64,000 bases of DNA from Gimesia sp. Lineage in GTDB: Bacteria > Planctomycetota > Planctomycetia > Planctomycetales > Planctomycetaceae. This document shows positions 831 to 30,321 of this stretch, one piece after another. The notes under the pieces were generated by a model. That model ran no database searches and was not told where the DNA came from. It worked only from the letters and a program-made list of their open reading frames with translations. Location of the stretch: the NCBI GenBank assembly GCA_002706765.1, contig PAJV01000013.1, positions 62,001-126,000 of the forward strand, written 5' to 3'. The translations under genes were made by a program, and so were the position numbers. Every line of letters starts with the position of its first letter. Positions within the stretch are counted from its first letter, which is position 1.

Positions 831-840
831 AGGACACCGG
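831..840 (+). promoter_or_regulatory. AGGACACCGG intercistronic element, plus-strand copy
   Basis: Exact AGGACACCGG followed by CAAG, 13 bases after the stop at 817 and 48 bases before the ATG at 889. Same sequence, orientation and spacing as the copies at 15.6-20.3 kb, although the genes here are unrelated to that array. Confidence 0.7.
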
Positions 841-10786: not shown

Positions 10787-12901
10787 TCAAGCAAGATATT
10801 GGCTTAGGATGATATCTGTATCAAATGCCGAGACCGTTCCCTCGTGCAAACCAAAAACGGTTTCTGCGTCCTTGATAGAATCAACGATTTCTCCCCGTGC
10901 CTCTGCGTGTATTAGGAACAAGTCGAAAAGAGTTGGTTTGTTGAGTTCAAGTATGGCACGTCCAATTTGACTGAAGCCAACAGAATTCTGGTGTGCGTTG
11001 TTTATCTGTGCATAACTTTTCAAGCCGAGATCGGCCCAATAGACTTTACGATTCAGAGCATCGATAATCAAAGGAACGCACGCCCTACTAGGGGAAGTAA
11101 TGTCAATTTTGTCCTGAACGGTCTTGGGCTCAAAGACTTCGCCAGAATTTGGCTTCTTTCTGACCATCCAGCCTCCAAAGCATTCTGGAAGTGAAACATA
11201 TGGTTGCCCCGAATATGACAATACACTCATGACAACATAGCGTGCTTTCATTTGCAGAGCGGACGGCAGATTCACGTCAATGAATTCACATGCTCCTTCT
11301 GGAGCCGAAGTGATATCTCCGCTATGGTAACATTGTCCATCCCTTAGATTGTAATAAGAGATGTCGCCTTGGCTTTCCCAGTTTTCATCGAAAAAGGAAG
11401 CAGATAGGTCGAGGTCAACTCGACTCGCCCACTCATCGTCTGCATCAATGTTTTTCCACCAACAGAAGAATCTAATAGTGTCTCCTTCAGGTAAGTCAAA
11501 TCTTGAACCACGAGATATGGCTCGCAACGATCTGCTGGCTGAACGCTGAGAGAATGGAACAATTTGATTTTTCAGTCGCTCATCGAGATAAACTTTTCCA
11601 AGAGAGGGCAGTTCTGTAAATCGTGCGAGAAGAATTTCACGAACACCATTATGAACAGCCTCAGAAATCCCTTCTGCCAGAGGTGCCAATGGACCATCCT
11701 TGACCTGTACTTTGGCCGCATTCCCTTTTGGGAAGAAAGCTCTATTTTCGATAACGTCACGAATTTGGAAATGGCACCATGTCTGTAACAGGACTGGCGT
11801 AGAAACTTGTGACGCAATCTCAAGAAAGCTCTTAACGATTGAATCCTGTTCGTTGTATGATCGCAATACATGGTCCAGCCGACGTGCAAAATCACCCGGT
11901 CGCTGTACCAGTAGTTGAATGGTCGTCTGAGGGATGCCCTCTCTGATTGCCTCTTCAATTTTTCCATTGAAGGTCTTGAAAGGTTTATTATTCCGAAGGA
12001 TATCAAATCCGTCGAAAGATTTGGGGAATTTCTTTTTAAAATCACCCGGATGCAATCGCTCGCCGAGTCGAATCCATCGATCCTTCCATCGAAGCATGTC
12101 TTCTGTTCTGCTCGAACCGGAGTTCTCTAAGCATCCAAGCAGGAACCGACGTTCTCGCTTTGAGAAGTTTCTAAACTTTGTAGGTTCTGCCAGTGAAGCA
12201 TCACCATCGGACATGACAACCGCCACACGAAGGACATCTGTGGCAGTTTTAATTGCCGGAATCAAACAGTCGGGCTGCGGCAAAGAGGCTACTAAGAATG
12301 CCAATGTTTCCTTTTGTGGTATCTTTTCTGGAATCAGCCCAGAGACATCTCGATGACTGGCGAACCAATCAAGAATATCTTTATCGGATTTCGAGATTGA
12401 AGAATTCGAGGCGGCTAGGTTTGTGAAAATGCTACTGAAATCTTCTTCAGAGCCAAGCTCGATCCAACGAAGAGTATGAAACTCTTCTAGCAATGGACGA
12501 GCCTCTTTCACATAGTTGGGAAGCACAACGAGACTTGGATCACCAATTGCATCTGAGACGATGAATCCGAAGTAGTGAGTGATTGCATTAAAGTATAGCT
12601 CTGCATCAGATGCTTCCATGACCTGTTTCGGAAAATTCGGATACATTGGATTGAATGTACGATGTGCTCCCACCAATTTCTGAAGTATGGGAAGAATCGT
12701 AGAATACCAAGATGCGAGTTCATCACTGGATAAACTCGAAAGACATTCCAAAATCGGAGTGCTCAAACCGAAACCAAGCGACTGCACATTTTTGGCAGCA
12801 GACGCAATCTCTTCTGACGTAGCACCTCCGTCACCTTCAGAGATTATGACCTTGAGGCTTTTCGTTAGGTAGATTTCTGTTTGATTGCGACTGGAAGTCA
12901 T
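10787..12901 (-). CDS. large stress-type protein with TerD-like region (MXAN_6230/SCO0854-like, no RING)
   Basis: 704 residues, cytoplasmic. The C-terminal third has a TerD-like stretch: RVDLDLSASFFDENW near 490, then YSGQPYVSLPECFGGWMVR near 560-577. After it comes CVPLIIDALNRKVYWADL. The N-terminal two thirds are helical (for example RWKDRWIRLGERLHPGDF). This layout recalls the MXAN_6230/SCO0854 family as I remember it, whose members carry a RING-type Cys cluster after the first helical domain; no such cysteines occur here. TerD-like domains are Ca2+-binding parts of tellurite/stress modules. It lies 256 bp downstream of, and on the same strand as, the Thg1/kinase pair, which suggests a shared RNA-damage or stress role. 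The family assignment comes from memory of motifs. Confidence 0.55.
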   Translation of the reverse strand: MTSSRNQTEIYLTKSLKVIISEGDGGATSEEIASAAKNVQSLGFGLSTPILECLSSLSSDELASWYSTILPILQKLVGAHRTFNPMYPNFPKQVMEASDAELYFNAITHYFGFIVSDAIGDPSLVVLPNYVKEARPLLEEFHTLRWIELGSEEDFSSIFTNLAASNSSISKSDKDILDWFASHRDVSGLIPEKIPQKETLAFLVASLPQPDCLIPAIKTATDVLRVAVVMSDGDASLAEPTKFRNFSKRERRFLLGCLENSGSSRTEDMLRWKDRWIRLGERLHPGDFKKKFPKSFDGFDILRNNKPFKTFNGKIEEAIREGIPQTTIQLLVQRPGDFARRLDHVLRSYNEQDSIVKSFLEIASQVSTPVLLQTWCHFQIRDVIENRAFFPKGNAAKVQVKDGPLAPLAEGISEAVHNGVREILLARFTELPSLGKVYLDERLKNQIVPFSQRSASRSLRAISRGSRFDLPEGDTIRFFCWWKNIDADDEWASRVDLDLSASFFDENWESQGDISYYNLRDGQCYHSGDITSAPEGACEFIDVNLPSALQMKARYVVMSVLSYSGQPYVSLPECFGGWMVRKKPNSGEVFEPKTVQDKIDITSPSRACVPLIIDALNRKVYWADLGLKSYAQINNAHQNSVGFSQIGRAILELNKPTLFDLFLIHAEARGEIVDSIKDAETVFGLHEGTVSAFDTDIILSQYLA

Positions 12902-13157: not shown

Positions 13158-13913
13158 TCAAAGTAACCTTTTCACGAACTCACTATATTCGTCCTTCATC
13201 GGCAGATCATAATCTTTCTTTATCCTCCGCCGCTGTGCCACAACATCCTCACCAGTGATGGGATTGATGGCGGGTTTCTCGTAATCTTCCCAGTACATGC
13301 CGATACCACGTTTTTGCCAGTTGGGGACATCGTTGAAATTGATGCCATATTGAAAAAGAAGTTCGTTTTTCTGACGGACTGAGAGCCCAAGTAATCGCTT
13401 GGTAGCAGCTTGCTCGTCCAGACATTCTTTACGAAGTGTCCAATAACAATATGCGCTTAAGGCATTTCTGGCAGCGTCTTCATTCCGCCAACGGAAATAA
13501 TCCACCACCAGTTCTACACTCGGCAATTGAGAGATTCGACAATCAAAAGTCGCCACCTCTCCAATTAAGAGAGAGAACTTGGCACTTGCTTCTGCTGCCA
13601 ATGTTGAGTTGTACTTACGGAGTTTTCTACCGAAGAGTTGATCTTCGAGAGAAAACAGCAAAGAAATCTCATCACTTTCGGTATAGGCGTAGAGTACCCG
13701 AAAACCACAAGTCATCAGTGATTCGGTGGTGGCCACCATCAGGTCTCGAAAGCATTGATCGAATGGAGCTTCAAACTGGCATACTTCTTTCGTCAATCGG
13801 GTGAAGCTGCGGCCATCCAGCCGAGCCACCATGAAGAGACCGGGGAGAACACAGTAATCGGCAGCGGTTTCAAAAACTCGCATTTTCTTATCAAGTTCGT
13901 CAAATTTCATCAT
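13158..13913 (-). CDS. Thg1-type tRNA(His) guanylyltransferase-like 3'-5' polymerase
   Basis: About 251 residues from ATG 13913, which has AGGA five bases upstream; an in-frame start at 13940 lies inside the upstream gene. Family hallmarks are ARLDGRSFTRLTK and YTESDEISLLF, which hold the two metal-binding aspartates (about D33 and D81). Thg1 and Thg1-like proteins add nucleotides in the 3'-5' direction to the 5' end of tRNA; bacterial members mostly repair truncated 5' ends. The length matches the family. The first 14 bases overlap the end of the P-loop kinase gene, so the two are translationally coupled. Together they could prepare and rebuild damaged RNA 5' ends; that pairing is inference. 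Confidence 0.85.
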   Translation of the reverse strand: MMKFDELDKKMRVFETAADYCVLPGLFMVARLDGRSFTRLTKEVCQFEAPFDQCFRDLMVATTESLMTCGFRVLYAYTESDEISLLFSLEDQLFGRKLRKYNSTLAAEASAKFSLLIGEVATFDCRISQLPSVELVVDYFRWRNEDAARNALSAYCYWTLRKECLDEQAATKRLLGLSVRQKNELLFQYGINFNDVPNWQKRGIGMYWEDYEKPAINPITGEDVVAQRRRIKKDYDLPMKDEYSEFVKRLL

Positions 13914-14346
13914 TCCATTCCTCGACGACGAATTCACCATTTTTTATTTGGACGTAAAACAATTGATCGAAGCCCTCGTCAAACGAAGGCAGTTCGAGTT
14001 TTGTAGCTTTCGATAATACTGCAACATCAGGAACTCGTTCCGTTTCCGAACGAGTCTCATTCCTTTTCAAACATTCCTCGATTACTGACTGAAAGTAATA
14101 TCCAACAACATCCAACCGGGCAGTTTTGGCAGCTTCAATGTACCTAGACCGATCTGCTCTAGTTGGGTTCGTGTTATCTATAACAAATTTTTGTTTAGCC
14201 TGAATGCACGCATCAAGAAGAAGCAGTTCTCTGTGGCGGGTTTTCAACAAGTCGAGGTTTATACGGACGTGTGTAGAGAAGAACCGCTCTTTGTAAAAGG
14301 ACGTTTTTCCCGACGCAGGCAAACCCATAAAGACGACCGCTTCCAT
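13900..14346 (-). CDS. P-loop kinase of the polynucleotide kinase/zeta-toxin type
   Basis: 148 residues. Walker A is GLPASGKT (8-15), followed by RINLD and FVIDNTNPTRADR (D57), an arrangement seen in the 5'-OH polynucleotide kinase and zeta-like families, where the DNT/N motif contacts the substrate. The C-terminal lid region has ECLKRNETRSETERVPD. The likely reaction is ATP-dependent phosphorylation of an RNA or nucleotide 5' end. The gene precedes and overlaps the Thg1-type gene by 14 bases, so 5'-end healing followed by 5'-end extension is a natural reading. A sugar or antibiotic kinase of the same fold cannot be excluded. Confidence 0.75.
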   Translation of the reverse strand: MEAVVFMGLPASGKTSFYKERFFSTHVRINLDLLKTRHRELLLLDACIQAKQKFVIDNTNPTRADRSRYIEAAKTARLDVVGYYFQSVIEECLKRNETRSETERVPDVAVLSKATKLELPSFDEGFDQLFYVQIKNGEFVVEEWNDEI

Positions 14347-14813
14347 TTTTTCTCACCATAATTTGCGAACCAATTCAGTGGACTGAGTGTCGAATTATCC
14401 CACGGCCCTCTTTTTAATCTTTAGAAAAGACACGTTTGAGATGACTTGCAAACTGACACTGAGAGTTCGTTATTGGTTCAAAGCATAACCGTTTAGCAAC
14501 AGTGAAGGAACAAGGTGTCATCCGTCGCTGGTCAGCGAAAGCTGGATTAAAAATGGGAGATTATACCTGTTATAATTCTGCGCAATCATACCTGCCGAAA
14601 TATTGCACCGGCGATTTTTTCGAGATTCAATCTGCATCAGTTTTTCAGCGTGGCGCAGGCGATTTGAAAGTTCTTCGATTAAAATAAAAGATAGGGGGGT
14701 ACACAGTGTGTAGCCAGCCTTCCCCACCCCCTTTCCTCCCCACTTTTCGAATCCAAGTTTCTCGGATTCTTTTTTTGTAACATCAGATTGAAGACCGAAG
14801 CTGATCCTGACGA
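14347..14813. other. 467-bp spacer between the kinase and recombinase genes
   Basis: No convincing gene. The only structure I can support is a hairpin with a T-run at 14749-14776. The spacer separates the RNA-repair pair from the mobile-element cassette and may contain its boundary, but no att core could be identified. Confidence 0.45.
14749..14776 (+). terminator. possible rho-independent terminator
   Basis: GAATCC at 14749-14754 pairs with GGATTC at 14764-14769 across a nine-base loop and is followed by seven T. The stem is short, and no plus-strand gene reads into it, so it could instead mark an element border. Confidence 0.35.
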
Positions 14814-15497
14814 TTAAACAACTTCGTACCGCCTCAAGACAGACCGCACCTGCACGTGATTCCATGATCGGCCACGGCGAGTCTCGTATCCGTCATCGTT
14901 GAGGTGTCTGGCAATGGCTCGCAGTGAAACACCTTCATCTCGAAGTTCCCTCATGATTGGATAGAGATCAGTGTAAGCAGAGTCGGCCTCTCTTCGTGCG
15001 GCTTCACCTGCCGCTGTTGCTCCTCTCCTACTCGCATCCATAGTCAGGTTACGACACTCAGGTCTGGACGCTCCAAGTTTACCACCACGAGCTTTGTAAG
15101 CTTTGAGCGCAGCCTTGGTACGCTCGCTGATCCGATGTGCTTCGTCCTGTGCAACCGCTGCCAAGATGTGAATGGTCAGATCGTTGGCACTTGGCTGATC
15201 ACAAGCAAGGAACTTGACGCCTGCCTCCATGAGACCACTCAAGAAGTGGACGTTGCGAGCCAGCCTGTCGAGCTTGGCGATGACAAGTGTGGCTTTGGAT
15301 CGACGGGCATGAGAAACTGCCTTCGCCAACTCTGGTCGTTCTGACCACTTGCCGGTCTCGACCTCGATGTACGACTTGAGGACTTGTGCCCCATGAGCAT
15401 TGGCAAACTGACTGACGGTGGCTTCTTGCCCTTCGAGCCCAAGTCCAGACTTGGCTTGCTTTGAAGTGGACACACGGTAGTAAGGCACGAGTTTCAA
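14814..15497 (-). CDS. serine recombinase (resolvase family)
   Basis: 227 residues. The N-terminal catalytic domain begins KLVPYYRVSTSKQ, with the nucleophile at S10 and the conserved Arg at R8. KLDRLARN and HILAAVAQDEAHRISERTK match the conserved helices of the family. The C-terminal segment (RAIARHLNDDGYETRRGRSW) is a helix-turn-helix. It is short, like Tn3/Hin resolvases, and lacks the large zinc domain of phiC31-type integrases. The start is TTG 15497 behind GGGAGA. The enzyme would resolve, invert or integrate DNA. It lies at the downstream end of the AGGACACCGG cassette array, with a 13-bp inverted repeat in its leader. Confidence 0.85.
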   Translation of the reverse strand: MKLVPYYRVSTSKQAKSGLGLEGQEATVSQFANAHGAQVLKSYIEVETGKWSERPELAKAVSHARRSKATLVIAKLDRLARNVHFLSGLMEAGVKFLACDQPSANDLTIHILAAVAQDEAHRISERTKAALKAYKARGGKLGASRPECRNLTMDASRRGATAAGEAARREADSAYTDLYPIMRELRDEGVSLRAIARHLNDDGYETRRGRSWNHVQVRSVLRRYEVV

Positions 15498-15598: not shown

Positions 15599-15608
15599 CC
15601 GGTGTCCG
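15599..15608 (-). promoter_or_regulatory. leader element copy A (GGACACCGG)
   Basis: GGACACCGG followed by CAAG on the minus strand, with C instead of A at the first position. It lies 44 bases after the stop at 15652 and 101 bases before the recombinase TTG, the only long spacing in the array. Confidence 0.65.
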
Positions 15609-15651
15609 AAAGGTGAAGCTCCCATCCTTGAGAGCCCCACCATCCACGGAC

Positions 15652-15897
15652 CTATTCCGGGGAGAAAGAAAAGTAATAGCGAGGGCTGGCTTGAAACATC
15701 ACACTTCCCCGCACGTTGTCACATCGACGACGAACTCCCACAAAGGGGGACATGAAACCCGTCACTTCAAATTGCTCCTGCAACTCGGTCGTATCCCAAA
15801 CTTCGCCGTGCTTGGCTTCAAGATATTCCCGACTTCCTTCGACGGCATTGATCTGTGCCACCATCTCACGACGGATTGGTTCTGTTGGATCAGACAT
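15652..15897 (-). CDS. 81-residue cassette protein, unrecognised
   Basis: The start is ATG 15897 (MSDPTEPIRREMV), with AAGGAACGAAA upstream and the leader element 45 bases before it. The protein is mixed charge with two helices and a strand-rich C-terminus (VTGFMSPFVGVRRRCDN, GSVMFQASPRYYFSF). No family is recognised. It is part of the co-directional array between the recombinase and the ArdC-like gene and is probably an accessory gene of a mobile element. Confidence 0.6.
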   Translation of the reverse strand: MSDPTEPIRREMVAQINAVEGSREYLEAKHGEVWDTTELQEQFEVTGFMSPFVGVRRRCDNVRGSVMFQASPRYYFSFSPE

Positions 15898-15942
15898 TTT
15901 CGTTCCTTTCAAGGTTGAGTTGTTGTTTCCACAGTCGTCTTG

Positions 15943-15952
15943 CCGGTGTCCT
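15943..15952 (-). promoter_or_regulatory. leader element copy B (AGGACACCGG)
   Basis: Exact AGGACACCGG + CAAG on the minus strand, nine bases after the TGA at 15962-15964 and 45 bases before ATG 15897. Confidence 0.75.
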
Positions 15953-15961
15953 ACTTACCGA

Positions 15962-16396
15962 TCACTGGCACTTCGCAGCACGACGAGCACGACGTTTCTC
16001 TGCGGATCGCTGATGGTGCAGGAGAACTTGCTCCCGCCACTCTTCGTTGCCGCCGTACTGTTCGATGGGAACTATCTCCAGATATTTCATTGGGCAACTG
16101 AAATAGTAAGGACCACATGATTCTTCCATGTCCTTATAGCCCCATCCAAAATCACGCTGGTATCTCAATAAGTCGCACTGAATCCAGCGTTGTTTGGGAC
16201 TGGATTCAGTCCCGTCTTTGTTGAAAGTGCGTTCCCAAACACTCCAAAGAACGCCCGAAAAGCTGCCACCTCGATAGCAATGAGCAAGACAGGTGCTTGT
16301 GATAACGAGACCGTCAGTGTTGGTTCGTTCCCAACCTTCGGTTCGTTCCTCAATAAGTCCCTTTCGAGTGCTGCCATTTCTGAATAGCCATCCCAT
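15962..16396 (-). CDS. 144-residue cassette protein, unrecognised
   Basis: The frame is open from 16513, but ATG 16396 is chosen because CACAGGAG lies seven bases upstream and the leader element is 43 bases upstream. The protein begins MGWLFRNGSTRKGLIEE and has conserved-looking aromatics and cysteines (CLAHCYRGGSFSGVLWSVWE, CGPYYFSCPMKYL), then a very basic C-terminal helix (RSAEKRRARRAAK). I recall proteins of this type in plasmids and integrative elements but cannot name a family. The Cys content could suit a metal site. Confidence 0.6.
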   Translation of the reverse strand: MGWLFRNGSTRKGLIEERTEGWERTNTDGLVITSTCLAHCYRGGSFSGVLWSVWERTFNKDGTESSPKQRWIQCDLLRYQRDFGWGYKDMEESCGPYYFSCPMKYLEIVPIEQYGGNEEWREQVLLHHQRSAEKRRARRAAKCQ

Positions 16397-16439
16397 GTTT
16401 TTCTCCTGTGAAGAATGTTGTTGATTTACAACTCGTTTT

Positions 16440-16449
16440 CCGGTGTCCC
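16440..16449 (-). promoter_or_regulatory. leader element copy C (GGGACACCGG)
   Basis: One mismatch at the first base; followed by AAAA rather than CAAG. It lies 11 bases after the TGA at 16461-16463 and 43 bases before ATG 16396. Confidence 0.7.
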
Positions 16450-16460
16450 AAATAGGGCAA

Positions 16461-16775
16461 TCAGTATTCTTCGGGCAGGAGTAGTGTAGTTGCAGATCGA
16501 TGGCCGTTGTCATCTTCGGCTTCAGTGATGATCCAAATCTTGACGCCTTTCGAAGTCTTGAAAGACGACAAAATTCGGCTCCCGTCCTTCAAGGCTTCTC
16601 CATTGAGTTCGTGATCTTCATCGCAAAGATCACCCTGTTCAAGCTGTAAATGAAGTTTGAGAAAATCGGATGGCGACTGGCCACTTTGCTCAAGGGCCTC
16701 CAATGCACCCGGAGTGGCGACTACTGTTCCTAACTTAAATTTTGGACTGGTCGCTTTGCTGTTTTGATTGATCAT
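16461..16775 (-). CDS. 104-residue mobile-element protein (type I plasmid hypothetical)
   Basis: The core KFKLGTVVATPGALEAL with a later WIITEAEDD and the end TTLLLPEEY is a pattern I recall in many plasmid and integrative-element hypothetical proteins, usually about 100 residues. Its function is unknown, but its presence supports a mobile origin for this array. ATG 16775 lies 42 bases after the leader element, with AGAAAGCG upstream. The stop TGA precedes leader copy C. Confidence 0.65.
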   Translation of the reverse strand: MINQNSKATSPKFKLGTVVATPGALEALEQSGQSPSDFLKLHLQLEQGDLCDEDHELNGEALKDGSRILSSFKTSKGVKIWIITEAEDDNGHRSATTLLLPEEY

Positions 16776-16817
16776 GTTTTCGCTTTCTGGTTAGAGATGG
16801 TTTGTCTGGTTTCTTTC

Positions 16818-16827
16818 CCGGTGTCCT
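16818..16827 (-). promoter_or_regulatory. leader element copy D (AGGACACCGG)
   Basis: Exact 10-mer followed by GAAA. Its first A is the last base of the TAA stop at 16827-16829, and it lies 42 bases before ATG 16775. Confidence 0.75.
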
Positions 16828-17042
16828 TACCAGTCCTCATCACCACCGTAATACCCAAAATATTCATCGCAGCATTCGAAGTCTTCGAGTTCCTGTTGCG
16901 CCAACATTTCATCCCACGGTTCATCTATTTCTGGAAGCTCCGAGAACTCATCTTCGAATTCAATTGCGGCCTGTTCATCAAGGATATCGCCATAGCCACC
17001 GTTCAAATGGTCTTCCATAAATTGGTCTAATAAGTCGTCCAT
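16827..17042 (-). CDS. 71-residue very acidic cassette protein
   Basis: MDDLLDQFMEDHLNGGYGD to the end GYYGGDEDW. About a third of residues are Asp or Glu, with few basic residues. Strongly acidic small proteins of mobile elements are sometimes DNA mimics that block restriction or nucleoid proteins (Ocr, ArdA and similar). That role fits the nearby ArdC-like gene but is not shown by any family motif. ATG 17042 has CAGGAG upstream and the leader element 47 bases before it. TAA overlaps leader copy D. Confidence 0.6.
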   Translation of the reverse strand: MDDLLDQFMEDHLNGGYGDILDEQAAIEFEDEFSELPEIDEPWDEMLAQQELEDFECCDEYFGYYGGDEDW

Positions 17043-17089
17043 CGTGTTGCTCCTGTGATTAAGTGATTTGTTATTTGACGACTTGCTTC

Positions 17090-17099
17090 CCGGTGTCCT
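17090..17099 (-). promoter_or_regulatory. leader element copy E (AGGACACCGG)
   Basis: Exact 10-mer followed by GAAG, six bases after the TAA at 17106-17108 and 47 bases before ATG 17042. Confidence 0.75.
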
Positions 17100-17105
17100 G
17101 CTGGC

Positions 17106-17504
17106 TTAATCCCGATAGCAGAACTTGGTCGGATTCATGCCATCTTTGGGGAGACCGTCACCGAAATATCGGCATGGAAACGGAGTCTCCGTTCCTTCTG
17201 CCCCGTGGATCATCAGATGATCGAGGTCGATCACCTGACCTGACGGCCCGTAGTTACAGGTCTCGGCGTCGTAATCGGCGAGATCGTCTTCAGACACAAT
17301 GATGTTGTGACCGTATTTTTCGTTGCCTGCGAGTTCGTCGATGGCATCCTGAATGGTGTCTGCTTCTACGATAAGAAACAGTGGCCAATACGATCCCCCG
17401 ATTTCGACAAGCCATGTCTTGCCAAACCAGTCGCCCGGATTGATTACGGGGATGTCTTTCAGTTCGTGGCCGTTGAATATCGCACATGATTTTACCTCGC
17501 TCAT
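17106..17504 (-). CDS. 132-residue cassette protein, unrecognised
   Basis: The frame is open from 17546, but ATG 17504 (MSEVKSCAIFNGHEL) is chosen because GGAG lies eight bases upstream and leader copy F is 45 bases upstream. The protein contains GSYWPLFLIVEADTIQDAIDELA with ...KYGHNIIVSEDDLADYD and ends in a Cys/aromatic-rich tail. The pattern of a strand, DA.DEL., then a strand is seen in small mobile-element proteins. No function is assigned. Confidence 0.6.
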   Translation of the reverse strand: MSEVKSCAIFNGHELKDIPVINPGDWFGKTWLVEIGGSYWPLFLIVEADTIQDAIDELAGNEKYGHNIIVSEDDLADYDAETCNYGPSGQVIDLDHLMIHGAEGTETPFPCRYFGDGLPKDGMNPTKFCYRD

Positions 17505-17549
17505 TATTTGAACTCCGTTATGAGTTGGACTGTTGTGATAACTCACTTC

Positions 17550-17559
17550 CCGGTGTCCT
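17550..17559 (-). promoter_or_regulatory. leader element copy F (AGGACACCGG)
   Basis: Exact 10-mer followed by GAAG. The TAG stop at 17558-17560 is contained in TAGGACACCGG; ATG 17504 follows after 45 bases. Confidence 0.75.
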
Positions 17560-18496
17560 ACTCATTATGTTCAGCACGGAGACGCTGGAGACAACGATAG
17601 AAACTTGCTCTCGATTTTCCCGTAACTTGCCTCCATGCCTTCTCTTGCTCTTGCACGCTATCGGGATGTTTCTGAATTGCGTTTTGCAGAAGTCGCAAAT
17701 CCTTAGTTTTGCTATCGAGACGCTTCGTCGATTCGTTCTTTCGTCCAAGAGTCTGCAACTGACTTTTGATCATTGGTCGCCAATCGATGCCTTCTCCACG
17801 TGCGTAATTAAGCTTCCGCAATGAAGGACCGAGTAATCTCATTGAAAGTTGCCGGTCATCGGAGTTCTCTGCGATGTAATCGATCACCATACCGCAATCT
17901 TCGGGTGTCAGATGATGGAATCCCTTTTGCGAAATGGACCGCATCAAATCGATTACTTCAGCATTGGTTGCAGATAGTTCAAACAGGTCACATCGGCTAA
18001 GCACAGCTTTGAAAGCGTCGTTACGAGGAATGACATTGGCCGCAAAGATGAATCGTGCGGTTGTCTCGAAAGATGAAGGAAGGCCATCAGGAAGCTGTGA
18101 CGATCCGTAACAAACTGTTCGAGGTGATCCCCACAAACAACTCCTTAACAATCCAAGATGTGGCATCGACGAATACATGGAATCGCAATCATCGAAAAAT
18201 AATGTCTCCTCTCCACGAAGCCGGAAGAGGGTTGTGTACAAAGCCAGAGGCGTGATGTGCGAATTGATTAAGATCGGTTCGATGCCTTCTTCATCCAAAA
18301 TATGGAGAATGGTGCGGCTTTTGCCCAAGCCTCCTTGGGCTCCAAAAACGAAGAGAGCGTGATTGTGTTTGCGAGCCACTAGCCGTACATGATGTGCAAG
18401 AAGTTGCTGTCTTTCTTCCAGAGCGGTTACAGATTTTTCCACAATGGAATTTTGGAAAAATGGATTCTGGTCATTGTTGTCATTAGGCATGTTCAT
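17558..18496 (-). CDS. AAA-type ATPase of the mobile cassette
   Basis: 312 residues from ATG 18496, chosen because GGAG lies upstream and leader copy G is 47 bases upstream; the frame extends to 18574 but would cross the element. Walker A is GAQGGLGKS (about 52-60), Walker B TLFFDDCDS (about 98-106), and a sensor-like RFIFAANVIPRND follows. The C-terminus is helical and ends with a helix-turn-helix-like stretch (KAWRQVTGKSRASFYRCL). The ATPase could act in replication, partition or DNA transport of the element. The closest analogy is plasmid/phage AAA helicase-loader types; no precise family is claimed. Confidence 0.7.
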   Translation of the reverse strand: MNMPNDNNDQNPFFQNSIVEKSVTALEERQQLLAHHVRLVARKHNHALFVFGAQGGLGKSRTILHILDEEGIEPILINSHITPLALYTTLFRLRGEETLFFDDCDSMYSSMPHLGLLRSCLWGSPRTVCYGSSQLPDGLPSSFETTARFIFAANVIPRNDAFKAVLSRCDLFELSATNAEVIDLMRSISQKGFHHLTPEDCGMVIDYIAENSDDRQLSMRLLGPSLRKLNYARGEGIDWRPMIKSQLQTLGRKNESTKRLDSKTKDLRLLQNAIQKHPDSVQEQEKAWRQVTGKSRASFYRCLQRLRAEHNE

Positions 18497-18543
18497 TTCA
18501 AAATCTCCATTGCGAAGTTGATTGTGTCTTGTTGGTTCTCTTG

Positions 18544-18553
18544 CCGGTGTCCT
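18544..18553 (-). promoter_or_regulatory. leader element copy G (AGGACACCGG)
   Basis: Exact 10-mer followed by CAAG. TAG at 18552-18554 is contained in TAGGACACCGG; ATG 18496 follows after 47 bases. Confidence 0.75.
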
Positions 18554-18959
18554 ACTCCAGCCCCATCGCTGCACGCCCGATGTACTCGCCGTATTCGTTT
18601 ATCCCCAGTACGGTAAAAATGCTGGACTGGAGCGAAGTGGCTGCGTCCCAAATATCGTCAGCACTGTGGCTGTCGGTGTCTTGGAACTCTGTGTCGCCCA
18701 TTCGTCGTAACAGAACGCATAGGGAGTGCGGCGTGACGGAGCAGTGTCCATTTTCGAACACGTTCTGCGGATCGCAGACCGCTTCAAGGTGACTATCAAT
18801 TCCCTGATTTATGCATTGAGCAATTGCCGCCCATTCGAGCGAACAGCGGATCGTCATTGTGAAAGGGTTGCTGTCGGTGAGTTCAATGGCTTGAAGCACT
18901 GTGGAATAATTGACCTGCAAAAGCTGTGAGTTGCAGATGTTGTTGAGTTGGATTGTCAT
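18552..18959 (-). CDS. 135-residue cassette protein, unrecognised
   Basis: Begins MTIQLNNICNSQLLQVNYST. The sequence is helical with several Cys and Ser residues and no recognisable motif (AAIAQCINQGIDSHLEAV, SVTPHSLCVLLRRMGD). ATG 18959 has GGAGAATAAAC upstream, and leader copy H ends 42 bases upstream. It is the gene just upstream of the cassette ATPase and separated from it only by the element-containing leader. Confidence 0.55.
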   Translation of the reverse strand: MTIQLNNICNSQLLQVNYSTVLQAIELTDSNPFTMTIRCSLEWAAIAQCINQGIDSHLEAVCDPQNVFENGHCSVTPHSLCVLLRRMGDTEFQDTDSHSADDIWDAATSLQSSIFTVLGINEYGEYIGRAAMGLE

Positions 18960-19001
18960 GTTTATTCTCCATCAGAAGATTGTTTTCGTGTTACGGACTT
19001 G

Positions 19002-19011
19002 CCGGTGTCCT
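19002..19011 (-). promoter_or_regulatory. leader element copy H (AGGACACCGG)
   Basis: Exact 10-mer followed by CAAG, 42 bases before ATG 18959. In the frame ending PPERVK the base triplet before GACACC is CAG rather than the TAG seen in copies F and G. Confidence 0.75.
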
Positions 19012-19012
19012 G

Positions 19013-19179
19013 TTTCACCCTTTCGGGAGGGAGAAAAAGACCAAGTGGATCGCTGTTAATGATCGCTGGGGACTTCAAGGCTTTACAGAGGCAGTGGAGC
19101 ACCGTTGCTCGCTGACCAGCCCGAGACAACGGTTCCGTTCTGCTTGTGGGCGTCAAAGCCGAAGCACCTTAACGATCAT
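19013..19179 (-). pseudogene. decayed small cassette gene
   Basis: ATG 19179 lies exactly 45 bases after leader copy I, as expected for a cassette gene, but its frame stops after eight codons (MIVKVLRL). Two other frames carry protein-like pieces: FGFDAHKQNGTVVSGW, then SPAIINSDPLGLFLPPERVK. Joining them needs two frame changes, and the last codon before copy H is CAG where TAG would end the protein. I read this as a small gene disrupted by indels and loss of its stop. A non-coding RNA is an alternative. Confidence 0.4.
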
Positions 19180-19224
19180 GATCAGCGATCCAGCTTGGCT
19201 GTCCCGATCAGGACGAAAGGCTTG

Positions 19225-19234
19225 CCGGTGTCCT
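19225..19234 (-). promoter_or_regulatory. leader element copy I (AGGACACCGG)
   Basis: Exact 10-mer followed by CAAG, nine bases after the TGA at 19244-19246 and 45 bases before ATG 19179. Confidence 0.75.
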
Positions 19235-19243
19235 GAAAGCCGA

Positions 19244-20131
19244 TCACACAACCAACGTCAGTTTTTCAACCGACGACTGGCGGAAGGCCAGCAGGTAATC
19301 TGCGGCTTTTGATGCGTGGGATGCTGCCTTGAAAATGAAGCTGGGATCGTTCTTCATTTCTCGAAGCCAACTTTGCACGTAACTGGTCACGCCTGAAAGA
19401 TCGTCACTGGCGGGGACGCCGACTTCGCAGCAGATGTAGCAAGAACCGATTTCCGCAACGAGTTCTTCAAAGGCGTAACTCAATTCAGAGCGATTCAGTC
19501 GGTGTGATGCTCCACTCCAATGCACCAGTTCGTGAGTAGCCGTGCTGTAGAAGTCATTCACGTTGGGAAACTGATTTCGCATCGGTAATTGGATATGGTC
19601 TGTGGTAGGCGAATAGTATGCCCGATTGCCACCATATCTGATGTCAGCTTCAGTAGCGTCTATGAGTGCATCGGCTTCGTCGTGGGAATCATCCATGTCG
19701 GTCGTGCTGTCACCATGACCAACTCGTAGATGATCAAGACCATCTGTTTGTTCGACATTGAAAACGTGGTAGATACGCAAAAGCGGGATGGTTTCTTCAC
19801 GTTCTTCACCAGCCACCTTTTGATTCTTGACTGGAATATTTTTGTAGAATGTGATTGCTGTTCCTTTTTCGCCACGCTTAACATTAGCACCCAGTTGTTG
19901 GATCTGCTTGTAGGTGCCCCACCACTTTGATTGATACCCGTGATTCATCCGGCTGATTTCCAGCAGGATCGGATTCACGCCCGAGTATCGGTTTGCGCTC
20001 ACAGCGTTTGTCGGTAGTCCTACATTTGGGTCATTGCTCCACGACTGACGCCACGGGAGCGTGTTGCCCGACTTTAAGGCGTCTACGATTTGTTGAGAGA
20101 TGTTTTGGCGAATTTCTTTTGTGCTTGGCAT
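19244..20131 (-). CDS. ArdC-like antirestriction protein / zincin-type metallopeptidase
   Basis: 295 residues. The N-terminal half is the ArdC-type ssDNA-binding domain (LPWRQSW, NRYSGVNPILLEI, KWWGTYKQIQQLGANVKRGE). The C-terminal half is a zincin-like domain with HELVH at 200-204 and EELVAE near 223 for the third ligand, followed by SWLREMKNDPSFIFKAAS. ArdC proteins are carried by conjugative plasmids and protect incoming DNA against host restriction. An acidic insert (about 140-162, STTDMDDSHDEAD) separates the domains. ATG 20131 lies 47 bases after leader copy J. This gene is the best sign that the array belongs to a transferable element. Confidence 0.85.
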   Translation of the reverse strand: MPSTKEIRQNISQQIVDALKSGNTLPWRQSWSNDPNVGLPTNAVSANRYSGVNPILLEISRMNHGYQSKWWGTYKQIQQLGANVKRGEKGTAITFYKNIPVKNQKVAGEEREETIPLLRIYHVFNVEQTDGLDHLRVGHGDSTTDMDDSHDEADALIDATEADIRYGGNRAYYSPTTDHIQLPMRNQFPNVNDFYSTATHELVHWSGASHRLNRSELSYAFEELVAEIGSCYICCEVGVPASDDLSGVTSYVQSWLREMKNDPSFIFKAASHASKAADYLLAFRQSSVEKLTLVV

Positions 20132-20178
20132 GGCATTGTGCTTTCACTGTTGAGTGGGTTGATGTTACGAAGCCGTTG

Positions 20179-20188
20179 CCGGTGTCCT
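20179..20188 (-). promoter_or_regulatory. leader element copy J (AGGACACCGG)
   Basis: Exact 10-mer followed by CAAC, 47 bases before the ArdC-like ATG 20131. Confidence 0.75.
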
Positions 20189-20244
20189 TTTATCTGGGAG
20201 TTGCCTTCTCTTGTGATGAAATGTTTACGGCAAACTTTTACTTG
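20189..20244 (-). other. leader without a gene (probable deletion scar)
   Basis: Between copies K and J there are only 56 bases. They contain a normal-looking leader ending in a ribosome-binding site (AAGAGAAGG) but no start codon or gene before copy J begins. It looks as if a cassette gene was lost between the two elements. Confidence 0.5.
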
Positions 20245-20254
20245 CCGGTGTCCT
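20245..20254 (-). promoter_or_regulatory. leader element copy K (AGGACACCGG)
   Basis: Exact 10-mer followed by CAAG; the most upstream copy in the array and the only one without a gene or gene relic behind it. Confidence 0.75.
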
Positions 20255-20658
20255 ATTACTGCCGTGGCGAGCAACTCGGGAATCTCGTGAGAAACGAGAA
20301 AAGACCGCTTATCGCAAATGCTCAAATGAGAATTTGAACCAATCTGCGACGAAAATGGGTCTTTGAGGCGATGGAATGTGGAGAGAATATGACTATATTT
20401 GTAGCGTCTTACGGCATATCGCAGGTGAAGGCGGCGTAGTGAGTCTCATTTTTCACGAGATCCGACAGAACGATGGCATGGAGTGCAAATAAAGGTAAGT
20501 TCTTGTTTCGCCAATACCGGGCATTGCGATAACTCGGTTTTAATGTCGCCCCATGAGGTCGGTATCAAGCTGATCGGCATTCTGCTTTCAATGCTGGAGA
20601 ATGTCGAAGGTCGAAAGTGCGCCGATCCGAGGGATACCTACAAACGGTTGATCAGGGT
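20255..20658. other. 404-bp spacer upstream of the cassette array
   Basis: No gene I can support on either strand. It should contain the promoter for the array if the array is one transcript, and possibly the other end of the mobile element. No terminal repeats were recognised. Confidence 0.4.
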
Positions 20659-21465: not shown

Positions 21466-22295
21466 GAAGCTGTCCTCTAAAATGTTCTTTGTACTACTCC
21501 TTCTCGGTTGCAGAAAAACCAGCACTTCTGATGGTGTTTATAATATACCATCTCTCGGAAACTCACAACGGGATGGCGGGGACACGACCGCCCGTTTGCT
21601 CTTGAAGTCTACGGTGATTTCAAACGACCAACGAGAATCACTACTGCTGTTCTCAAAGATGGGTTTCTGGCCGGCCTTTTCTCTCCACTGCTTTCCCTTC
21701 TTCTTTGCAACTGCCTGACCTGCCGTAACTCGCTCTGCTATGATCTCGGTCTCAAGGTGGTAAGAATCTATTCTCAAGAGCAGTTATGATTTGATTTGTG
21801 ATTTCGCTTCTGATTATTTGATTTCGTGACACTGGCCGTCTCCTGATAGAGGTTGAGTTGATCGACATTACTTAAGAAATATTTATGAGGGACATAAAGA
21901 TGTATCTCAGAGAGAATTGAGATGGTGGCTAGAAGATGAGAATTAAGGGAATGAGATTGCGGAATTGAGACTGGTTCGACCCAAAGCCTTCCCACCTATA
22001 AACCCTATAATTATAGGTGTTTACTGAGGCCTGCTGGATGGCTGATGTAATGGAGTCTCAAATTTCAATGAGATCGGGGAATCAAAACACGTGTGGGTAA
22101 AAGAGTGAGACCCCGAAATATTAAGACCCAGATTAAATGAGTTTAATATGACTTTTCAATAGTAGTTATATTTTCTTTTCCCATTCATCCTAATGTGTTG
22201 ATTAACAGTAGAGTGCACTGGTATAGTGGGGTTGACCGTTTGATTGTAATTATGAAGTCAAAAGAATTTATGATGACTGATTTTGGAGATGTGTA
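21466..22295. other. 830-bp gene-poor region
   Basis: Divergent spacer between the VOC gene and the secreted protein at 22296. It becomes AT-rich after 21.8 kb. Apart from an inverted repeat at 21993-22019 I see no gene or RNA. Confidence 0.45.
21993..22019. repeat. 9-bp perfect inverted repeat
   Basis: CACCTATAA (21993-22001) and TTATAGGTG (22011-22019) form a perfect stem with a nine-base loop. There is no T-run, so an operator or element end is as likely as a terminator. Confidence 0.5.
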
Positions 22296-29703: not shown

Positions 29704-30321
29704 TTACATTTTGTTCTTTAAGATTTCTTTTTTCCATAAAGTAATGTTCTTGTCGTATATTCCCTTTACTTCAAGATACCAATCAGGTGGGTTTCCATAC
29801 CATAGTTCCCCAAGCAGACCAGCGTCGCTACAGTCAAAGAAGAAGTCGATGGGATCTCCATGTCTCGAATCTTTCAGAAAATCATAGTCCCTTAAAACAG
29901 GGGTAAACAGCCAGTTCATCTCATGAAAGATGGTCATAGAATTGTCCGCTGCACGAATCGCAGAATCGTAACCTTCATCCAGAAAATCATTGGCAATATA
30001 TGCTGTGGCTTTGAAAGCATGAGCAGCCGAAATTGCGGAAGCCTTGGTTTTGGAAGTAACATCCTTTTCTGAAAGTTCAGTGGCATAACTGAGAAGTTCA
30101 TCTGCATTGAGGGAGGCGTCCTCCGCTTCATTAAAGGATATGTTCAGATTCAACGAATCATCGATTTCAAGAACAAATCGTTTATATTGATACGAAGCTT
30201 GATTACAAAGGCACAAGAATGGCTGCACTCTCAAAGCACACCGGGTTGCATATGCGGCGATTGAGGGAGGCGAAAGCGTTCTTAGCATTTTTTCTGTAGG
30301 CAATGTATATTCTTTTTTCAT
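29704..30321 (-). CDS. 205-residue helical protein, unrecognised
   Basis: MKKEYTLPTEKMLRTLSPPS, then long Ala-rich helices (SKTKASAISAAHAFKATAYI and DSAIRAADNSMTIF) and an aromatic C-terminus (GLLGELWYGNPPDWYLEVKG). It looks like an all-helical cytoplasmic protein. No family is recognised. ATG 30321 has GAGAGGT upstream. The start overlaps the truncated gene described next, so it may have replaced that gene's 3' half. Confidence 0.55.
   Translation of the reverse strand: MKKEYTLPTEKMLRTLSPPSIAAYATRCALRVQPFLCLCNQASYQYKRFVLEIDDSLNLNISFNEAEDASLNADELLSYATELSEKDVTSKTKASAISAAHAFKATAYIANDFLDEGYDSAIRAADNSMTIFHEMNWLFTPVLRDYDFLKDSRHGDPIDFFFDCSDAGLLGELWYGNPPDWYLEVKGIYDKNITLWKKEILKNKM

Follow-up and report, generated by a model that had tools for sequence, protein, structure and literature searches.

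The present study concerns a 64,000-nucleotide (nt) stretch of the genome of a Gimesia species (Planctomycetota; GenBank contig PAJV01000013.1, positions 62,001 to 126,000), hereafter the window, in which the 10-mer AGGACACCGG recurs along an array of minus-strand genes between 15.6 and 20.3 kb (Table 1). The array runs from a conserved upstream region (HEAD) through an ArdC-type anti-restriction gene, a structured RNA, an AAA+ ATPase-like protein and several proteins of no assigned family to a serine recombinase, followed by a further conserved segment (TAIL); its units are referred to as modules A to I and the element ahead of each as its header. The array is one member of an island family in planctomycetes, its islands measuring 6-7 kb and consisting of HEAD, header-led modules, a downstream recombinase and TAIL. 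Searches of the open-licence literature returned no description of this island family or of the header, in agreement with an earlier reading made from the sequence alone (the sequence-only reading), which knew of no described system with this sequence. Of 34 papers that contain the 10-mer, the 20 listed seem from their titles to be unrelated.

Allowing one mismatch, AGGACACCGG occurs 13 times in the window, compared to a mean of 2.08 and a maximum of 6 in 100 shuffles, none of which reached 13. Eleven of these copies lie at 15599-20254, all on the minus strand, nine being exact and two altered at the first base (C at 15599 and G at 16440), just as the sequence-only reading had reported, while the other two, an exact copy at 831 and an inexact one at 30235, are on the plus strand. 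The conserved unit exceeds the 10-mer and may be written AGGACACCGGNAA(G), where N is mostly C; the information profile of the header is limited to approximately 13 asymmetric positions and contains no inverted-repeat or dyad arms. In the whole 7.9-Mb genome (G000) the pattern GGACACCGGSAAG occurs 12 times and its reversed-pattern control not at all, with 11 of the 12 copies falling on the contig of the window (C13) at 59.7-82.3 kb (window -2.3 to 20.3 kb), where they comprise the array and three plus-strand copies on its opposite side (window 831, and C13:59744 and C13:60853 just left of the window). Chance or a codon effect as the origin of the clusters is ruled out by the shuffles and the reversed-pattern control. 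The plus-strand copies (the 831-1941 region, C13:59744 and C13:60853) precede cargo genes convergent with the array, which encode a membrane protein, a GYF-like protein (judged by eye) and a weakly CusF-like/PD40-like protein, and homologs of two of the three cargo segments are present in a second genome, G007.

The element had been described as lying always in the gap between genes, a description that needs amending for four copies of the array: the first two (20245 and 20179) form a doublet 66 base pairs (bp) apart before the first gene, that at 19225 heads the non-coding module B, and that at 15599 precedes a recombinase with a long leader, 106 nt separating the core from its best start (TTG). 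The doublet is likewise found in G002, G003, G007, G049 and G141. At three copies (18544, 17550 and 16818) the stop codon of the preceding module overlaps the element, as had been noticed before. The start codon follows the end of the 10-mer after 42-47 nt in every short-leader protein module of the array (eight in total: A, C, D, E, F, G, H and I), a distance within the 42-48 nt originally given and equal to the ACC-to-start values used below minus 5, and the leaders after the element are A/C-rich with a Shine-Dalgarno-like site. A sigma-70 promoter (-35/-10, 16-18 nt spacing) was tried and rejected, since a scan gave 4 sites versus 6.6 expected and none was formed by the element.

Table 1. 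Features of the island in the window (positions within the window; aa, amino acids).
Feature	Position	Strand	Basis or remark
HEAD, conserved region upstream of first element	20255..20461	-	motif GTGAAAAATGAGACT at 20442-20456; alignments
HEAD 18-bp inverted repeat	arms 20282-20299 / 20444-20461		
Element copy 1, first of doublet	20245..20254	-	
Element copy 2, header of module A	20179..20188	-	
Module A, ArdC-type anti-restriction protein	19244..20131	-	Pfam ArdcN 9.6e-35, MPTase-PolyVal 5.7e-39
Element copy, header of non-coding module B	19225..19234	-	
Module B, predicted structured non-coding RNA, U-run after main stem	19012..19225	-	fold z and covariation
Element copy, header of module C	19002..19011	-	
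Module C, protein of no assigned family	18552..18959	-	homologs in G007, G030; no Pfam match
Element copy, header of module D, overlapping stop of C	18544..18553	-	
Module D, predicted AAA+ ATPase-like protein	17558..18496	-	structure model, Foldseek; no Pfam match
Element copy, header of module E, overlapping stop of D	17550..17559	-	
Module E, protein of no assigned family	17106..17504	-	in 8/16 islands
Element copy, header of module F	17090..17099	-	
Module F, small acidic protein of no assigned family	16827..17042	-	in 10/16 islands
Element copy, header of module G, overlapping stop of F	16818..16827	-	
Module G, protein of no assigned family	16461..16775	-	in 14/16 islands
Element copy (first base G), header of module H	16440..16449	-	
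Module H, protein of no assigned family	15962..16396	-	in 11/16 islands
Element copy, header of module I	15943..15952	-	
Module I, 81-aa protein of no assigned family	15652..15897	-	in 13/16 islands
Element copy (first base C), upstream of recombinase	15599..15608	-	junction of G002-only insertion
Terminal serine recombinase, 227 aa, TTG start	14814..15497	-	Pfam Resolvase 1.8e-27
TAIL, conserved segment after recombinase, ends approximate	14530..14784	-	alignment; kept in G003
Exact element copy before cargo gene (start near 889)	831..840	+	
Relic of second island head upstream of array, TGACACCC-class-like	21790..22072	-	decayed ArdC start, destroyed element

The pattern is present in nine of the 17 genomes of the genus, clustering in four (G000, G002, G003 and G007), whose arrays are largely collinear and differ by whole modules, and occurring as lone copies in the rest; those in G001, G005, G006, G008 and G009 were judged from their isolation to be chance. 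Chance is also the likely source of the scattered GGACACCGGSAAG copies in 94 of 170 family genomes (usually one or two each among the matches listed, the reversed control matching many too) and in viral contigs (34 and 13 stretches with one exact match each, among them L101, in which three looser copies were seen). A single perfect GGACACCGGCAAG at L014 8707 (+) (G000:C56) overlaps a TAG approximately 2 kb before a distant (25%) relative of module D. Employing module D as the query, matches were obtained in 17 of the 170 family genomes at an E-value of 1e-5 or better, in eight of 392 genomes of a phylum sample at 1e-20, and at nine loci of a named collection, eight of them titled as planctomycetes. 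The further arrays found in this manner share homologous modules (ArdC, B, [C], D, [E], G, F, H, I and recombinase), the presence of which varies per island: ArdC is first, usually followed by the structured RNA, and there are an AAA+ protein and small proteins of no assigned family. The order of G and F is reversed in the TGACACCC class. No match to module D was found in plasmids; its phage relatives are below 60% identity (approximately 30% among the matches listed), and two viral contigs matched at 26%. No empty integration site was found, the island flanks being themselves accessory, and a tRNA was detected once each in L156, L151 and L042 (the last unassigned) and in none of the other 13 of 16 loci.

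Most islands possess a header spelling of their own that is repeated within the island, namely GGACACCGGCAAG (window class), GGACACCGGCCAG (G049), GGACACCAACTAC (G030), TGACACCCGCAA, CATACCCACTAC and ACACCTGTTAG (Ca. Laterigemmans, L168), with TCATACCCACTACG in G141 and, in the loosest class, TGACACCC[G]CAA in G006, G014, G007b, G007c, G005, G000:C71 and G151. G000 and G007 hold islands of two spellings each, and next to the islands of G000 and L168 the local spelling recurs in copies on the reverse strand.

Across 16 of these related islands, the distance from header to module start (ACC to start) is 41-55 nt for 64 of 101 starts, compared to 2.0% of random positions, and an own-class element is found within 150 nt of 91 of the 101 (17.6% of random positions). 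Start codons were picked by rule, and the count leaves aside six modules without a placeable start, L170 and L171 (element-like site before D only) and L172 and G138 (no clear array). Outside the islands, none of 147 open reading frames (ORFs) of at least 150 aa has [AGT]GACACC at 41-55 nt, with 0.26 expected by density, and the core is therefore not a general host signal. The sequence-only reading had staked its case in part on whether the spacing is conserved beyond the window; it is, and the fixed-spacing intercistronic control signal then proposed gains support from a spacing common to the 16 islands.

The header is not confined to protein-coding modules. Module B is predicted to be a structured RNA from its fold z of -5.05 and from covariation, 23 of 58 consensus pairs being changed on both sides among six sequences; Rfam gave no match between 13000 and 21500 of the window (E up to 1), and only one tRNA at five other loci (gathering threshold). 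Where ArdC and D are both present (15 islands), the long form of B was seen in six and a compact hairpin at its position in five, while B is lost from G002, a protein module takes its slot in G141 and L168, and G151 was not resolved. The apical part of B contains a near-palindrome, CTGGCCAG (in G007, G003, G049 and L174), which could let two copies pair. Module D is, by its structure model (mean predicted local distance difference test score (pLDDT) 83.8), a predicted AAA+ protein, RuvB/clamp-loader-like in Foldseek, where the query-normalised template-modelling score remains below 0.5 among the 50 matches listed. Ahead of the first element, a motif near GTGAAANTTGAGACT (up to three mismatches) is found at 159-223 nt in all 15 islands with a defined first element, a count made in the same islands from which the motif was derived. 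In a test for single-strand promoters, HEAD strands reached a z of -2 or below in six of 15 heads on either strand (range -3.3 to +1.2). TAIL is conserved within the two main classes and less clearly across classes, and is kept in G003 despite a recombinase of another subfamily. The inverted repeat of TAIL (window 14619-14799) has arms approximately 149 nt apart, much like those of HEAD, which are 144 nt apart.

Based on these findings, we propose that the header is a DNA-level expression-control site, directional and either a promoter core or operator/stoperator-like, a reading to which we tentatively assign a rough probability of 0.47. In this scheme AGGACACCGG would be the core of a directional module header of approximately 13 nt, usually placed soon after the stop of one module and approximately 45 nt before the next start (or, for the RNA, a few nt ahead of its structure), and a factor tuned to the island would use it to switch all modules of that island together, as might be anticipated where ArdC heads a set of anti-defence genes; module gain and loss would then be a by-product of short-homology recombination between headers of identical sequence. 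We infer a protein reader of the header, action at the level of transcription and genes that serve establishment. The header is not purely translational, given that it stands ahead of a non-coding RNA module as well. Control at the transcription level is favoured because the header heads this RNA and because asymmetric, oriented sites of such a kind are seen in the stoperators of cluster A mycobacteriophages.

These stoperators (PMC6550527, PMC9283540) occupy short intergenic spaces, are asymmetric, 13 nt long and oriented with transcription, and vary in spelling from one relative to another in correlation with the repressor. The header resembles them in its length of approximately 13 nt, asymmetry, single orientation, location in short intergenic spaces and spelling that differs between relatives, and departs from them in keeping a distance of approximately 45 nt to starts, in heading most modules including an RNA and in residing in bacterial islands; no candidate repressor was found among the island modules or in the flanks of L168, G030 and the window. 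The SAS/ESAS of cluster K mycobacteriophages, an asymmetric repeat of 13 nt, is found ahead of numerous gene starts, predominantly in a single orientation, and has no assigned function (PMC3203893); the header is alike in being an asymmetric repeat of approximately 13 nt ahead of many genes, mostly in one orientation. However, SAS (GGGATAGGAGCCC) stands immediately upstream of the start, whereas the header lies approximately 45 nt upstream, is unrelated in sequence and differs in spelling per island. In plasmids of the pLS20 family, the repeated upstream sequences EGeRS1/EGeRS2 mark ardC and other variable establishment genes as one regulon (PMC8708921), much as the header repeats before ardC (module A) and other modules; yet EGeRS measures approximately 140-750 bp and precedes operons in a conjugative setting with a relaxase, while the header is of 13 nt and precedes single genes, and no relaxase of two families was found in the host-genus genomes tested.

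A number of observations weigh against control of expression by the header. Relaxase PF03432 was found in none of eight genomes tested, five of them of the host genus, and TrwC relaxase in none of the five host-genus genomes and two of the eight overall, the nearest approximately 78 kb from the G030 island; with these two families absent from the host-genus genomes tested, the establishment frame gains no support from them. No reader was found among the modules of the 16 islands, none of which is both universal and tracks the spelling, or in the flanks of L168, G030 and the window; the information profile revealed no second conserved box beside the element. The islands are related, and the 101 starts accordingly do not count as independent. 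The TGACACCC class is loose, and L174 keeps nothing constant but the core GGACACC; in islands of the TGACACCC class the spacing of D is 28-30 nt (four cases) and that of H 66-71 nt, while the 227-aa recombinases lie 106 nt and the tyrosine recombinases 70 and 90 nt from the element. Ten of the 101 starts have no element within 150 nt, including that of the 191-aa recombinase in 4/4 islands, two of the ten being recombinase matches that are probably outside the arrays. Terminator-like hairpins occur on both sides of the element (12/71 before and 12/125 after) and are not decisive.

The alternative that survives best, although we regard it as unlikely, is that the element works at the RNA level, as a transcribed part of the mRNA leader, by a processing cut, antitermination loading or translation control, each module acquiring its own mature 5' end. 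Such a signal would fit the shared leader length to the start codon, the A/C-rich leaders with their Shine-Dalgarno-like site, the elements on both sides of module B, and, for H of the TGACACCC class, the terminator-like hairpin and T-run that separate element from start and would need read-through. The element nevertheless also precedes the non-coding RNA and the 66-bp spacer of the doublet and is thus not tied to a start codon; no conserved structure was seen around it, its island-private spelling would need an island-specific RNA reader, and no segment of B complementary to the header was seen by eye, no systematic search having been run.

In 15 of the 16 islands (all but L174) a recombinase was found after the last modules, which speaks for a role of the element in recombination. 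Four kinds are distinguished, namely serine recombinases of 227, 191 and approximately 200 aa and a tyrosine recombinase of approximately 245 aa, the domains having been checked for ten and the remainder assigned by similarity; in 6/6 islands the start of the serine recombinase of approximately 200 aa follows an own-class header by 41-51 nt. The 191-aa enzymes (76-82% identical across spellings) and those of approximately 200 aa (69-81%) each occur with three spellings and the tyrosine recombinase (74%) with two, while the single spelling TGACACCC accompanies three recombinase kinds. Recombinase kind and spelling are thus decoupled both ways, which makes it very unlikely that the recombinase is the reader and which, together with the lack of dyad arms, led us to reject the header as the site of the terminal recombinase.

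Modules are nonetheless gained and lost at headers. Eight distinct clean indels separate the islands, and five have their junctions in the element with an overlap of 9-36 bp covering it: loss of B and C in G002, a 960-bp G002-only segment, loss of C in G003, a 555-bp G007-only segment (one pairwise view of which, G003 versus G007, was scored without the element since the compared stretch ended inside it) and a module loss in G000:C71, an island of another spelling. The three not at the element are loss of H in G005, a 74-bp difference at a seemingly decayed element, and a duplication of head and ArdC in G007, which was scored as element since its 327-bp overlap spans some and is here grouped with the junctions away from it; the tally of eight does not include 'replaced' segments that lack clean junctions. 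At L039 9530-10900, the duplicated head and doublet of G007 are accompanied by a truncated ArdC-like ORF and a gene of no assigned family. With five of eight clean indels breaking in the header, it is also a joint, and the modular cassettes recombining at the element that the sequence-only reading envisaged are upheld as regards gain and loss, though not as a dedicated site of the adjacent recombinase. That such a joint for insertion, excision and exchange is what the element is for, as attC is in integrons, appears improbable to us. In integrons, gene modules are strung together with a repeated site separating them and a recombinase at one end of the array, and the islands share all of this; they differ in possessing three serine subfamilies and one tyrosine type rather than one IntI-type tyrosine integrase, in a header that lacks attC-like structure and is tied to the start codon, and in keeping the local header where genes differ. 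Recombination alone would leave the spacing to the start codon unexplained. Recombination at headers is real, but probably secondary.

Several modules appear, from their sequence relationships, to have been exchanged between islands rather than only to have diverged. A second type of D (64-83% mutual identity, 43-49% to other D) is present in G049, G030 and G005 behind three spellings, and in G005 it stands behind a leader typical of that island's own class. The ArdC of G003 is 41-43% identical to that of its spelling-mates and yet carries their doublet, header and leader, for which exchange would be the simpler reading, deep divergence being also possible; module G of G151 shares more identity with that of G030 (60%) than with the G of its class (44-48%). 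Modules with relatives in other islands bear the header spelling of the island in which they stand, and this, together with a likeness between modules that mostly ends after approximately 13 nt and with opposite-strand copies kilobases away that share the spelling, makes it the least probable account that headers all descend from a single ancestral leader, have been kept similar through ectopic recombination and have no dedicated function beyond that of an ordinary leader. Some leaders are nonetheless alike outside the element as well (76-80% over 53-59 nt for F of one island versus H of another), and the indels are of a microhomology type.

The header may go further and constitute an address code, each island having its private 13-nt header ahead of its genes and RNAs, and captured or exchanged genes coming under the local address; we consider this doubtful. 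A matching reader (or RNA B with a protein) would then switch the whole island, and several islands per cell could be controlled independently.

Beside the array in the window, a Thg1-type tRNA guanylyltransferase adjoins an AAA_33 P-loop kinase (13158-14346, minus strand), a pair that also follows the G003 island (93% DNA identity), and a 704-aa protein (10787-12901, minus strand) matches the NCBIfam MXAN_6230/SCO0854 RING-domain family at 4e-132, below the curated cut-off. Upstream of the G030 island, L155 1930-4386 (+) encodes an 818-aa protein that is primase-polymerase-like by eye.

The islands represent a recognisable and apparently undescribed family in a phylum whose mobile DNA is little known, combining ArdC, a structured RNA unmatched in Rfam, several small proteins of no assigned family whose genes are candidates for anti-defence, and interchangeable recombinases. 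The header provides a simple sequence handle by which such islands may be found and their genes assigned to one regulon, and the natural set of spellings renders the question of the reader testable, since a factor that reads the header should change its specificity with it.

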